Source: Acidobacteriota bacterium (lineage in GTDB: Bacteria; Acidobacteriota; Vicinamibacteria; Vicinamibacterales; UBA823). Taken from it: DNA of 64,000 nucleotides. Below the pieces are notes generated by a model. It was not told where the DNA came from, ran no database searches, and was given only the letters and a program-made list of their open reading frames with translations. The translations under genes were made by a program, and so were the position numbers. Positions 37,720 through 41,974 of this stretch are shown in pieces. Each line of letters starts with the position of its first letter. Position 1 is the stretch's first letter. Where the stretch lies: positions 1-64,000 of the forward strand of contig PCAK01000023.1 in NCBI GenBank assembly GCA_002730525.1, written 5' to 3'.

Positions 37720-38166
37720 ATGTCGATCAAACGCGCGAGTAAGGCCCACTACATGATCAGCGCCGTGGCGCAGAAGTACGACATTCATCCGCAGACGCTG
37801 CGCCTGTACGAGCGCGAAGGACTGTTGAAGCCGTCGCGAACCGATGGGAATACGCGGCTCTACGGCGAAGACGACCTCGAACAACTGGAGACGATTCTCG
37901 CGCTGACCCGCGATCTCGGCGTCAACCTGGCCGGCGTCGAGATCATCCTCAACATGCGGCAGAAGATCGAGCAGATGCAGGATGAGGTCAACGAGTTCGT
38001 CGGCTACGTCAAGCAGGAATTGACCCGCGGCCTCGGCGACTGGGAGCAGCGTCTCGGCACGGCGCTCGTCAAGGCCTCGCCGACCGATCTGGTTCGCGCA
38101 GCCTCGGTCAAACCGTCGCGTCCGGCGAGGGGCGGCGAGGGGCGGACGAGTCGTCGGCGTTCGTGA
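37720..38166 (+). CDS. hspR: MerR-family heat-shock repressor HspR
   Basis: A 148-residue protein with a MerR winged helix at the N-terminus (YMISAVAQKYDIHPQTLRLY, then LKPSRTDGNTRLYGEDDLE) followed by a coiled coil (IILNMRQKIEQMQDEVNEF). This is the HspR arrangement, which in other bacteria represses dnaK operons with DnaK as co-repressor. Its place just after dnaK-dnaJ supports autoregulation of the operon. The binding site is not recognised in the dnaK promoter. Confidence 0.9.
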   Translation: MSIKRASKAHYMISAVAQKYDIHPQTLRLYEREGLLKPSRTDGNTRLYGEDDLEQLETILALTRDLGVNLAGVEIILNMRQKIEQMQDEVNEFVGYVKQELTRGLGDWEQRLGTALVKASPTDLVRAASVKPSRPARGGEGRTSRRRS

Positions 38167-38257: not shown

Positions 38258-39106
38258 ATGCCCTGTCCGCACTGCGACGATACCGGATGGAAGCCAGTCG
38301 AGGATGATGGCGTCCGCAGCGTGGTCCGATGCGACTGCTGGCGGGAAGCGCTGACCGGAAGGTTGTTCGGGGATGCCCGCATCCCGCCGCGGTATCATCG
38401 CTGCAATCTCGACGCCTTCGTCGTCTACCCAAACGAAAAGCTCCAGAAGGCCGTGGCGCGGGCGCGTGCGTTCGCCGAGGCGTTTCCCGTCGTGGAGCAG
38501 GGACTCTTCTTCGTCGGCCCGCCCGGGATCGGCAAGACCCATCTGGCGGTGGCGGTGTTGAAAGCGGTCATTCAACGCTGCGGCGCGCGTGGGCTCTTCT
38601 ACGACACACGCGAACTGCTCCGCGTCATCCGCAGCACCTACAACCCCGTCGTGCGGACGACCGAGGCGGATATCCTCAAGCCGGTCATCGAGGCAGAGTT
38701 GCTCGTGCTGGATGATCTGGGCGCGGAGAAGACGTCCGAATGGGTCGATGAAACGTTGAATCTCATCGTCAATACCCGCTACAACGAGCGGCGGCCGACG
38801 ATCTTCACGTCCAACTACGACGAGTACCCCGACAACGACCTCGAGCCGTCGCTGCTCGAGCGCGTCGGGTTTCGCATGGTGTCCCGGTTGCACGAGATGT
38901 GCGAGTTCCTGGAGTTCGAAGGGGCCGACTACCGGTTCTGGGAAGGCCAGGGCCCGGCCACGCCGGCCGACCTGCTCAATCTGTTCAAGAATCAGAAGCG
39001 CCCGAGTCGCAGCGGCCGGCGGCGCGCCTCCGGTCAATTGAAGGCGCAGCAGCGCGAAGGCAGCGCGGACGTCCGCTGGCCTGGCGGCAAGGCAGGCTCG
39101 TCGTGA
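38258..39106 (+). CDS. DnaC/IstB-like AAA+ ATPase
   Basis: The 282-residue protein has an N-terminal zinc-type Cys cluster (PCPHCDDTGW, then RCDCWREAL) and an AAA+ core with Walker A GPPGIGKTH, Walker B LLVLDDLGAE, and sensor residues in TIFTSNYDEYP. DnaC/DnaI homologues load the replicative helicase. IstB, the transposon relative, is unlikely because no transposase is nearby and the Zn-ribbon start resembles the DnaI/DnaC helicase-loader type. An Arg/Gly-rich tail follows the core. The start is the ATG at 38258. Its stop overlaps hemW (GTGA). Confidence 0.82.
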   Translation: MPCPHCDDTGWKPVEDDGVRSVVRCDCWREALTGRLFGDARIPPRYHRCNLDAFVVYPNEKLQKAVARARAFAEAFPVVEQGLFFVGPPGIGKTHLAVAVLKAVIQRCGARGLFYDTRELLRVIRSTYNPVVRTTEADILKPVIEAELLVLDDLGAEKTSEWVDETLNLIVNTRYNERRPTIFTSNYDEYPDNDLEPSLLERVGFRMVSRLHEMCEFLEFEGADYRFWEGQGPATPADLLNLFKNQKRPSRSGRRRASGQLKAQQREGSADVRWPGGKAGSS

Positions 39107-40287
39107 CGGCGACGGCGCCGGTCGAGGCGGCGCCGCCGGCGGAAGCCCACGCCGCGAACGAGCCGCTCGGCCTCGGCCTCTATGTTCACGTTCCGTTCTG
39201 CGACGCGATCTGTACCTACTGCAATTTCACGCGCGGCCTGTTCGACGCGACGTTGGTGCGGCGCTACGTGGAGGCCGTGATCGCCGAGATTGCGGCGGCA
39301 CCGACGGCCCGGGCCGCCGACACGATCTACTTCGGAGGCGGCACGCCGTCCGTGCTCGAGCCCGAGGACGTGAAGCGGATCCTCGACGCCTGCCGGTCAT
39401 CGCGGGAGGTGGGCGCGGACGCTGAGATCACGATGGAGGCGAATCCCGAGTCGGCGACGGCGGCTCGGCTCGATGGATACCGTGCCGCTGGCGTGACTCG
39501 GCTCAGCCTCGGCGTGCAGTCGTTCCGCGATGCCGAACTGGCGCTGCTGGGGCGGTTGCACACCAGCCGTGGCGCTCGCGACGCGATCGATCGGGCTCGC
39601 CACGCAGGTTTCGACGACCTCAGCCTTGATCTGATGATGTGGCTGCCGGGCCAGACCGTCGATGCGTGGCTCGAGTCGGTGGATGCGCTCATCGCGCTCG
39701 CGCCAGACCACGTCTCGCTCTACCTGCTCGAGGTCTACCCGAACGCGCCGCTCCGCGACGAGATGGTGCGGACGGCTTCCACCCAGGCGCCCGATGACGT
39801 CGCCGCCGAGATGTACCTGGCGGCACTTGGCCGACTCGACGAGGCGGGATTTCGTCAGTACGAGATCTCCAACGTTGCGCGGCCCGGCCACCGCTCTCGC
39901 CACAACCTGAAGCACTGGGCCGACGGCAGCTGGGTCGGCTTCGGTCCCGGCGCGCACTCGACCCTCGGCGCCGACCGCTGGTCGAACATCCCGGACGCCG
40001 AGGCATACGTGGCGCGGCTCGAGGCCGGCGAGGACCCGACCCAGGCTCGCCAGCGGCGGTCTGCGGCCGATCAGGCGTCCGAAGCGCTGTTCATGGGGCT
40101 GCGTCTGGCCGACGGCGTCGACCTGGCGGCTGTCGAGAAGCGCCACGCGATCGACGTGCGCGCTCGGTACGGCGAGGCGCTGCGGCCCTTTGTCGACGGC
40201 GGGCAACTCGTCGATGAGGGCGATCGGCTACGGCTGACCCGCGAGGGGATGCTGCTTGCCAATGAGGTCATGGCGGTTTTCGTCTAG
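39103..40287 (+). CDS. hemW: Radical SAM protein HemW (heme chaperone)
   Basis: A 394-residue member of the coproporphyrinogen-oxidase-like radical SAM family. FCDAICTYCNFTRG holds CxxxCxxC for the 4Fe-4S cluster near residue 34. YFGGGTPSVLEPEDV and MEANPESATAARLDGY are also typical. The C-terminal HemW domain (RQYEISNVARPGHRSRHN) is present. HemW carries and inserts heme rather than oxidising coproporphyrinogen. The first 25 residues are Ala/Pro-rich with no homology. It starts with GTG in a GTGA overlap with the DnaC-like gene. Confidence 0.92.
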   Translation: MTATAPVEAAPPAEAHAANEPLGLGLYVHVPFCDAICTYCNFTRGLFDATLVRRYVEAVIAEIAAAPTARAADTIYFGGGTPSVLEPEDVKRILDACRSSREVGADAEITMEANPESATAARLDGYRAAGVTRLSLGVQSFRDAELALLGRLHTSRGARDAIDRARHAGFDDLSLDLMMWLPGQTVDAWLESVDALIALAPDHVSLYLLEVYPNAPLRDEMVRTASTQAPDDVAAEMYLAALGRLDEAGFRQYEISNVARPGHRSRHNLKHWADGSWVGFGPGAHSTLGADRWSNIPDAEAYVARLEAGEDPTQARQRRSAADQASEALFMGLRLADGVDLAAVEKRHAIDVRARYGEALRPFVDGGQLVDEGDRLRLTREGMLLANEVMAVFV

Positions 40288-40340: not shown

Positions 40341-40829
40341 ATGCGCTCACGTGAGGAGAATCCGGTTCGTCGTTCGGCTTGGATCGGGGCGGCCGTCGCG
40401 GTGGCGGTGGTCGTCGGCACGGTGCTCGGCGTGCACGGGCTCGCCAGCGCGCAGCAGCAGAACCGGGCTACTACGTTCAGCGGCCAGGTTGGGTTGATAC
40501 AGAACACCATCAAGGGCGGTGCCACCGCCGATTTTGAGATGGTGATGCAGAAGGTCAAGGAGGCGCTGCGCGACAGCCAGAACCCGGTTCGTCAGCGACA
40601 GGGCCGCTCGTGGAGAACTTTCAAGAGTTCGGCGCCAGGTCCCCAGGGCGTTGTGTTCTACTTCCACGTTATCGACCCGCCCGTTCCCGACGGGGATTAC
40701 ACGATTTCGACAATCCTGGCCGAAGGGTTCCCGGCCGAAGCGCAGCAGCTGTACGACACGTTCAGCAACGCGTTCCAAGGCGGTGTGGTGCCGATCGACC
40801 TCCAGCTCGTGAACGACTTCAGCCGGTAG
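40341..40829 (+). CDS. Secreted protein of unknown family, paralogue A
   Basis: The 162-residue protein has a basic N-terminus and a hydrophobic signal segment (AWIGAAVAVAVVVGTVLGVH) ending in ASA. The mature part (TFSGQVGLIQNTI, TADFEMVMQKVKEALRDS, GRSWRTFKSSAPGPQGV, HVIDPPVPDGDYTIS, AEAQQLYDTFSNAF) aligns along its whole length with the gene at 41471-41974. TAGAAT (40301-40306) and AAGGAGGT just before the ATG give it good expression signals. No domain is recognised. It is probably periplasmic or outer-membrane associated. Confidence 0.85.
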   Translation: MRSREENPVRRSAWIGAAVAVAVVVGTVLGVHGLASAQQQNRATTFSGQVGLIQNTIKGGATADFEMVMQKVKEALRDSQNPVRQRQGRSWRTFKSSAPGPQGVVFYFHVIDPPVPDGDYTISTILAEGFPAEAQQLYDTFSNAFQGGVVPIDLQLVNDFSR

Positions 40830-40877
40830 CCGCCGCACATCCGTTCGATTCCGACCTCCACGATTCTCGAAGACGAC

Positions 40878-40920
40878 CGACCGGCCGCGAGCGCGACGAG
40901 CGCTCGCGGTCGTCCGGTCG
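40878..40920. terminator. Long hairpin between convergent genes
   Basis: CGCGAGCGC (40886-40894) and GCGCTCGCG (40900-40908) pair around a 5-base loop. CGACCGG (40878-40884) and CCGGTCG (40914-40920) extend the stem after a small bulge. It lies between two genes that read toward each other, so it is probably a two-way terminator. Confidence 0.65.
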
Positions 40921-40957
40921 TGCTCTGCGTGGTGTGCCCGATCCGGGGGGGGGTGGG

Positions 40958-41464
40958 TCAGAACGCGAAGTTGAGGCCGAAGTAGATCCGTTGCGGTCTC
41001 GATTCGACGGGCGAGCCCTGCAGCGTGAACACGCGATAGTCGATGCGGGCACGGAGCGGCCCGGCCAGCGCGATCTTCACCCCGCCGCCGAAGTTCAACC
41101 CCATGTGGGTCTCCAGCACGTTGGCGAGTTCCTCCCGGTAGACGCCGGCACCGGTCGTGCCGTAGAACTGCAGACCCGCGAGCGGCACCGGCGTCTGCAC
41201 GAGCACGTTGAACATGCCCGTCCGGAGCGACGGCGCCCCTTCCAGTTCGTCCTCGCCGTTGCTCGAGTACTCGAACTCGAAGCCGATCACGAGCAGGGAG
41301 ATCCCGACGCCGAAACCCCGCACGGCCCGGTTGGAGGGCATCGTATTCACGCCGGTGAAGATGGTTGCATCGGCGGCCGCCTCGAGGGGAGCGAACAGGA
41401 GCAAGGCGGTCGCTGCGGCCGCCGTCAGGCTCGTTCGCGAGTGGGTGCCCGTGAAGACTCGCAT
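40958..41464 (-). CDS. Small outer-membrane beta-barrel-like protein
   Basis: The 168-residue protein has a signal peptide (TSLTAAAATALLLFAPLEAA), then alternating polar/hydrophobic strands (SLLVIGFEFEYSS, GLQFYGTTGAGVYRE, GLNFGGGVKIALAG, IYFGLNFAF). It ends in Phe, the usual C-terminal signature of outer-membrane barrels. It lies six bases after the stop of the paralogue B gene, so it shares that transcript. Function unknown; it may anchor or export the paralogues. Confidence 0.82.
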   Translation of the reverse strand: MRVFTGTHSRTSLTAAAATALLLFAPLEAAADATIFTGVNTMPSNRAVRGFGVGISLLVIGFEFEYSSNGEDELEGAPSLRTGMFNVLVQTPVPLAGLQFYGTTGAGVYREELANVLETHMGLNFGGGVKIALAGPLRARIDYRVFTLQGSPVESRPQRIYFGLNFAF

Positions 41465-41470
41465 GGAGCC

Positions 41471-41974
41471 TTATGGCACCGGAGCGGCGGGCGGTACCGT
41501 TGCTGGGCTGGCGGGCTGGACCTGACCCGCGAAGTCGGCCAGCAGCGTCAGGTTGATCAGGCTCGGGCTGTACGCGTAGGACGCGGCGAACTTCTCGTAG
41601 AGTTCCTGGGCCTCGAGCGGCAGTTCCTGGCGAAGCAACTCACCGATCGTGTAGTCGGAGGCGGCGACGGTCGGGTCGATGATGAAGACGTACAGCACCG
41701 AGTTCTGATCGGGCGGTCCGGGTTCTGCCGCCCGGTACACCTTCCACCCAGCCGCCTGCGCCCGCCTCGTTTCGTCGGTGCTGTTGCGCAGCGCGTCGCG
41801 GACTCGCGTGATCACATCCTCGAAGTCCGCCGTCTTGTCCTGAAGAATCGGATGGAAGAGCACGCCGGCCTGGCCGGTGAAGACGCGATCCTGCGCGCGG
41901 CCGACCGACGCGCCGAAGGCCAGCGCCACCATGACCACCATGCCTCCTGCGAACACCCTGGCCCGTGCGAACAT
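41471..41974 (-). CDS. Secreted protein of unknown family, paralogue B
   Basis: The 167-residue protein has a signal peptide (VFAGGMVVMVALAFGASVGR) ending near AQD. The mature part aligns with paralogue A at 40341: FTGQAGVLFHPIL, KTADFEDVITRVRDALRNS, AAGWKVYRAAEPGPPD, FIIDPTVAASDYTIGELL, EAQELYEKFAASY. It has an extra Pro/Ala tail of about 20 residues. The beta-barrel gene follows in the same direction. No recognised domain. Confidence 0.85.
   Translation of the reverse strand: MFARARVFAGGMVVMVALAFGASVGRAQDRVFTGQAGVLFHPILQDKTADFEDVITRVRDALRNSTDETRRAQAAGWKVYRAAEPGPPDQNSVLYVFIIDPTVAASDYTIGELLRQELPLEAQELYEKFAASYAYSPSLINLTLLADFAGQVQPASPATVPPAAPVP

Follow-up and report, generated by a model that had tools for sequence, protein, structure and literature searches.

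What are the two related secreted proteins that flank a small outer-membrane barrel gene on opposite strands in a soil-type Acidobacteriota genome, and what might they do there? The arrangement was noticed in a stretch of 64,000 nucleotides (the window), and a reading from the sequence alone described it as an uncharacterised envelope module of unknown family that arose by inverted duplication. The genome (3.31 Mb) encodes two members of the protein family in question, here termed FAM, namely P0001 and P0002, and no others. The middle gene encodes P0003, and f1, f3 and f6 denote taxonomic families, f1 being that of the window (Table 1). The answer that emerges is that FAM is a real, conserved and undescribed envelope protein family whose fold type is itself already known, and for which a role together with the barrel can be tentatively proposed.

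Table 1. Features of the locus in the window, with coordinates and strands.
Feature	Coordinates	Strand	Description
hemW-like gene	38899..40287	+	radical SAM + HemN_C; constant upstream neighbour
P0001, paralog 1	40341..40829	+	162 aa; secreted, predicted ABM-like alpha+beta domain; first gene after hemW, gap 53 bp
P0001 signal peptide	40341..40454	+	cleavage near LASA|QQQ, judged by eye from the sequence
Hairpin	40869..40925	.	gap between convergent P0001 and barrel gene; from folding
P0003, predicted 8-stranded outer-membrane beta-barrel	40958..41464	-	168 aa; signal peptide, C-terminal Phe
P0002, paralog 2	41471..41974	-	167 aa; secreted, predicted ABM-like domain, Pro/Ala-rich C-terminal tail; 6 bp upstream of barrel gene
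P0002 signal peptide	41894..41974	-	cleavage near GRA|QDR, judged by eye from the sequence

P0001 and P0002 share 36% identity over 148 residues (BLASTP, E 8e-31) and, judged by this comparison of their sequences, are true paralogs. The motifs that the sequence-only reading had listed along both products are all present, in the same order: FSGQVG/FTGQAG, ADFEMV/ADFEDV, ALRDS/ALRNS and SW/GW, together with PGP, IDPPV/IDPTV, DYTI and EAQQLY/EAQELY. The signal peptides that it had assigned to both are likewise recognisable, each N-terminus presenting an n-region, a hydrophobic core and an AxA-type site and lacking a lipobox. Compared with the same-genus copies, dN/dS is 0.14 for P0001 and 0.12 for P0002 and lies between 0.12 and 0.18 across these two and the barrel gene, a range that denotes purifying selection, and the three are therefore taken to be functional genes. 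The two FAM genes also display an inverted match of 53 nt (72% complementary), which is a necessary result of paralogs sitting on opposite strands. The description of a pair on opposite strands with the barrel between holds, with the refinement that the convergent genes are those of P0001 and the barrel, P0002 being co-directional with the latter. P0002 and the barrel gene probably form one operon. At the other side of P0001, the GTG listed as the start of hemW overlaps the preceding gene, and the true start probably lies further downstream.

As the sequence-only reading had supposed, FAM belongs to no family with an assigned function that profile searches of Pfam and NCBIfam can find. Searches of Pfam, NCBIfam and PDB sequences with P0001 and P0002 yielded chance matches only, none of them at a Pfam or NCBIfam cut-off, and none of 43 FAM members matched PF03992 (ABM) or PF07978 (NIPSNAP) at E <= 0.5. 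A profile-profile comparison of FAM with ABM sequences of the same order (hhalign) was not counted as support: ABM gave the lowest P value, 0.014 against at least 0.075 for nine neighbouring gene families used as controls, at a probability of 3%. Literature searches returned nothing on FAM.

The structure prediction suggested alongside the sequence-only reading was carried out on single chains, giving an ABM/NIPSNAP-like fold for P0002 and an eight-stranded barrel for the middle gene. The AlphaFold model of P0002, built with 12 relatives in the alignment, has pLDDT >90 over most of residues 40-140 and follows the order beta-alpha-(alpha)-beta-beta-alpha-(alpha)-beta, that is, a predicted ferredoxin-like beta-alpha-beta-beta-alpha-beta domain of about 95-110 residues. 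Its best matches among PDB structures are of ABM type (3bm7, Z 9.0), LsrG, YgiN and NIPSNAP, with Z of 9.0-7.3 over 91-102 residues, and the others are further dimeric ferredoxin-like proteins. The top VIA-align match (95 residues, 2.8 A) reaches a Z of 9.0, a value slightly above the range that the structure tool calls common. With Foldseek, the ABM, LsrG, YgiN and NIPSNAP matches have probabilities mostly of 0.9-1.0 and none has an E-value <0.001. All 86 FAM ORFs carry a hydrophobic N-terminal segment, separated from the domain by 8 to 107 residues, and a lipobox-like motif occurs in two of them. Across these ORFs the near-invariant positions are a Glu (94%), a Lys or Arg (99%) and two Tyr (94% and 96%), as well as a Pro; no His or Cys is conserved. 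Export and the predicted fold class of FAM are accordingly regarded as fairly secure, although likeness of fold by itself does not show function.

The barrel assigned by the sequence-only reading to the middle gene is borne out by the model of P0003, in which eight strands follow the signal helix. The matches of this model (Z 17-20 overall, 127-144 residues) include NspA at Z 19.6 and OmpA and OmpW at about 17-18. By sequence, P0003 matches PF13505 (OMP_b-brl) weakly, with E 2e-4 and 22 bits against a gathering cut-off of 28.7. It is therefore barrel-like by its predicted fold and is not filed as a member of that Pfam family.

The distribution of both proteins was followed in 396 genomes of the phylum, 42 of which, including the one studied here, represent the order of the window (Vicinamibacterales). 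FAM is found in 41 of these 42 and, with a single-sequence query, in none outside the order. A profile of 43 sequences adds one convincing relative beyond it (G291, E 4.6e-15), not adjacent to hemW. Weaker matches outside the order (E 0.002-0.009) were discarded; none reaches past about profile position 83, and most of their coverage falls in the N-terminal third, signal peptide included. A barrel ortholog (E <1e-40) is present in 40 of the 41 FAM-positive genomes, and G285, the one FAM-negative genome of the order, is missing the barrel too. In G285 and G400, the two FAM-negative genomes of the order or family, a close hemW ortholog is likewise missing, and their assemblies may just lack the locus. 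The picture of an uncharacterised envelope module is thus upheld by the order-wide conservation, the near-complete co-occurrence and adjacency of the barrel, and the lack of a family match.

The surroundings of these genes were surveyed in 40 fetched stretches and 5 named records. The row runs dnaK, dnaJ, a merR-type regulator, an ATPase, hemW, one to three FAM genes and a convergent barrel gene, and then passes to the meaB side, with (an acyl-CoA dehydrogenase, named by eye from the sequence), meaB, a glyoxalase-type gene, a phosphorylase and a pfkB kinase. hemW and FAM are directly adjacent in 42/42 loci and FAM and the barrel in 39/40; the border between the barrel and meaB/glyoxalase is direct in 5/34 and has intervening genes in 29/34. 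Other features of this region and of the family merit mention in their own right. The MerR-type regulator (37720-38166 in the window), right after dnaK-dnaJ, has an HspR-like placement that is conserved across the order. A sigma-factor-like gene (about 213 aa) lies between the dnaJ/merR and ATPase genes in L057, L063, L066 and L069-L073, that is, in one f3 subgroup and one f6 genome (L070). Just past the barrel, L044, L063, L066, L069, L070, L072 and L073 encode a secreted protein (about 210-250 aa) whose C-terminal part is NPCBM/LecA-like by eye. An extra FAM copy in L076 (G277:C123, 7698-8246, + strand) stands away from hemW and the barrel, beside gene clusters rare in the set, and is perhaps a moved copy. 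In L107 (G291:C6, 6753-8155, + strand) the FAM relative directly follows a secreted protein of 295 aa that matches NIPSNAP weakly and not significantly (E 0.066); databases may thus understate how common secreted proteins of the ABM/NIPSNAP fold class are in Acidobacteriota.

The strong hairpin that the sequence-only reading placed between convergent ends is also confirmed, those ends being the ones of P0001 and the barrel gene. It reaches -44.9 kcal/mol (63 nt, z -4.7), the two strands giving z of -4.7 and -3.5. It has no T-tract, and no intrinsic-terminator match was found at the junction. Comparable stable hairpins occupy the same gap at the convergent junctions of many other relatives. Its identity as a mobile repeat was rejected: the best other match in the genome is 84% over 36 nt, and the element is not repeated. 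It is perhaps a two-way terminator despite the missing T-tract, and is regarded as an ordinary feature of the junction.

A lack of relatives with the three-gene arrangement, which would have spoken against the sequence-only reading, is not what is seen: relatives within the order keep the gene set of the window, mostly in another orientation, and this bears on how the pair arose. FAM copies range from one to three per locus in the order, and in all multi-copy loci outside f1 the genes at the hemW-barrel place are direct tandems, so that the proposal of an inverted duplication is unsupported as a general origin. Outside f1 the FAM and barrel genes are convergent and therefore not co-transcribed. 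In all eight FAM-carrying f1 genomes the two copies lie on opposite strands, and the space between them would accommodate the barrel gene. For the window and three f1 relatives that were fetched, the barrel gene is confirmed in this space, and the second copy lies 6-14 bp upstream of the barrel gene and co-directional with it. Because the inversion is confined to f1 and tandem genes elsewhere in the order are direct, the inverted layout is, by parsimony, a derived local state of that one family. In the best FAM tree (82 sequences, 130 columns) P0002 groups with the second of the tandem copies in five f3 genomes (support 88/93), which fits the relocation of an old tandem copy. That the pair instead arose by an inverted duplication inside f1, independently of the tandem pairs elsewhere, is an alternative that we consider somewhat less likely than not. 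Forcing the eight f1 sequences into one clade is not rejected (AU test, p 0.52), and a five-gene tree implies at least five changes of FAM copy number within the order; the placement of P0002 with the f3 copies and the generality of the tandem arrangement outside f1 speak against it.

As for function, the reading that we tentatively prefer, at less than even confidence, is that FAM is an order-specific periplasmic dimer of ABM/NIPSNAP-type fold that binds a small molecule or acts as a cofactor-free enzyme, probably together with the barrel. Proteins of this fold class dimerise by pairing their sheets and bind small molecules between the sheet and the helices; they comprise cofactor-free oxygenases, isomerases, haem degraders and proteins whose role is unknown. 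P0001 and P0002 would be exported by Sec, with removal of the signal peptide, and the mature domain is predicted to adopt the ferredoxin-like fold of dimeric alpha+beta barrel proteins. From here we infer the dimer, the ligand pocket, the barrel partnership and, with them, the function, the ligand and the reaction. The domains would associate sheet to sheet, either each protein with itself or P0001 with P0002. In each subunit a pocket between sheet and helices would most likely hold a small molecule, one that is probably hydrophobic or aromatic, and this molecule would be carried, or converted without metal or haem. The eight-stranded barrel is the likely partner, either as entry route or as membrane anchor. 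Copy number would vary from one to three by tandem duplication, and in f1 the second copy, inverted and just upstream of the barrel, would probably belong to the transcription unit of the latter. A more specific version, in which ABM-fold paralogs form heterodimers and a dedicated barrel delivers their substrate, as an undescribed order-wide periplasmic enzyme or carrier system of Acidobacteriota, seems to us improbable.

The partnership with the barrel is favoured by the presence of its ortholog in nearly every FAM-positive genome and by a FAM-barrel border that is tight where the barrel-meaB border is loose. On the other hand, the hemW and dnaK-dnaJ neighbours are equally conserved, so the adjacency may be partly regional synteny. 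It is conceivable, if rather unlikely, that FAM and the barrel are unrelated neighbours kept together by slow rearrangement of the dnaK-hemW-meaB region: the row from dnaK through dnaJ, merR and the ATPase to hemW is nearly as conserved as the FAM-barrel adjacency, and the two genes are convergent in most genomes. Against this, other genes intervene at the barrel-meaB border in most loci while the FAM-barrel border is nearly always free of them, and the f1 rearrangement brought the second copy next to the barrel gene, immediately upstream and co-directional. It is unlikely, too, that FAM is non-enzymatic, serving in the periplasm as a scaffold or adaptor with its domain kept close to the outer membrane or peptidoglycan by an Ala/Pro-rich linker; the variable spacing between hydrophobic segment and domain and the Pro/Ala-rich tail of P0002 would suit it, but the near-invariant Glu, Lys/Arg and Tyr residues exceed the obvious needs of a scaffold, though all could be structural. 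We consider it very improbable that FAM handles haem, as an IsdG/MhuD or chlorite-dismutase-like enzyme would, even if the fold matches include MhuD (Z 6.7) and hemW adjoins FAM in every locus. Haem enzymes of ABM-type fold use a haem-ligating His, and the lack of a conserved one led us to reject FAM as a haem-degrading ABM protein. Moreover, HemW acts in the cytoplasm, whereas FAM is exported.

FAM and its barrel, found in nearly all sampled genomes of one order and almost absent elsewhere in the phylum, seem for that reason to belong to the core envelope of a hard-to-culture group. FAM is of interest as a core unknown of this order and not as a new kind of system. Neither Pfam nor NCBIfam has a model for it; with its fold predicted and its candidate partner a constant one, the family is directly testable in a cultured relative.

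Among known systems, FAM most resembles the ABM proteins (PF03992: YgiN, LsrG and SnoaB type) in predicted fold, domain size, the order of strands and helices and structural scores of up to Z 9.0, but differs from them in being exported, with a signal peptide and a linker, in having no sequence or profile support and in its lack of a conserved His. It shares the predicted fold class of NIPSNAP (PF07978; Z 7-7.7), while no member matches that family by sequence. P0003, in turn, is like the OmpA barrel, NspA and OmpW in its eight predicted strands, signal peptide, C-terminal Phe and Z of 17-20. It differs in falling under the Pfam cut-off, in being without an OmpA-type C-terminal domain and in having close orthologs, within the genomes sampled, only in the order of the window, where they are linked to FAM.
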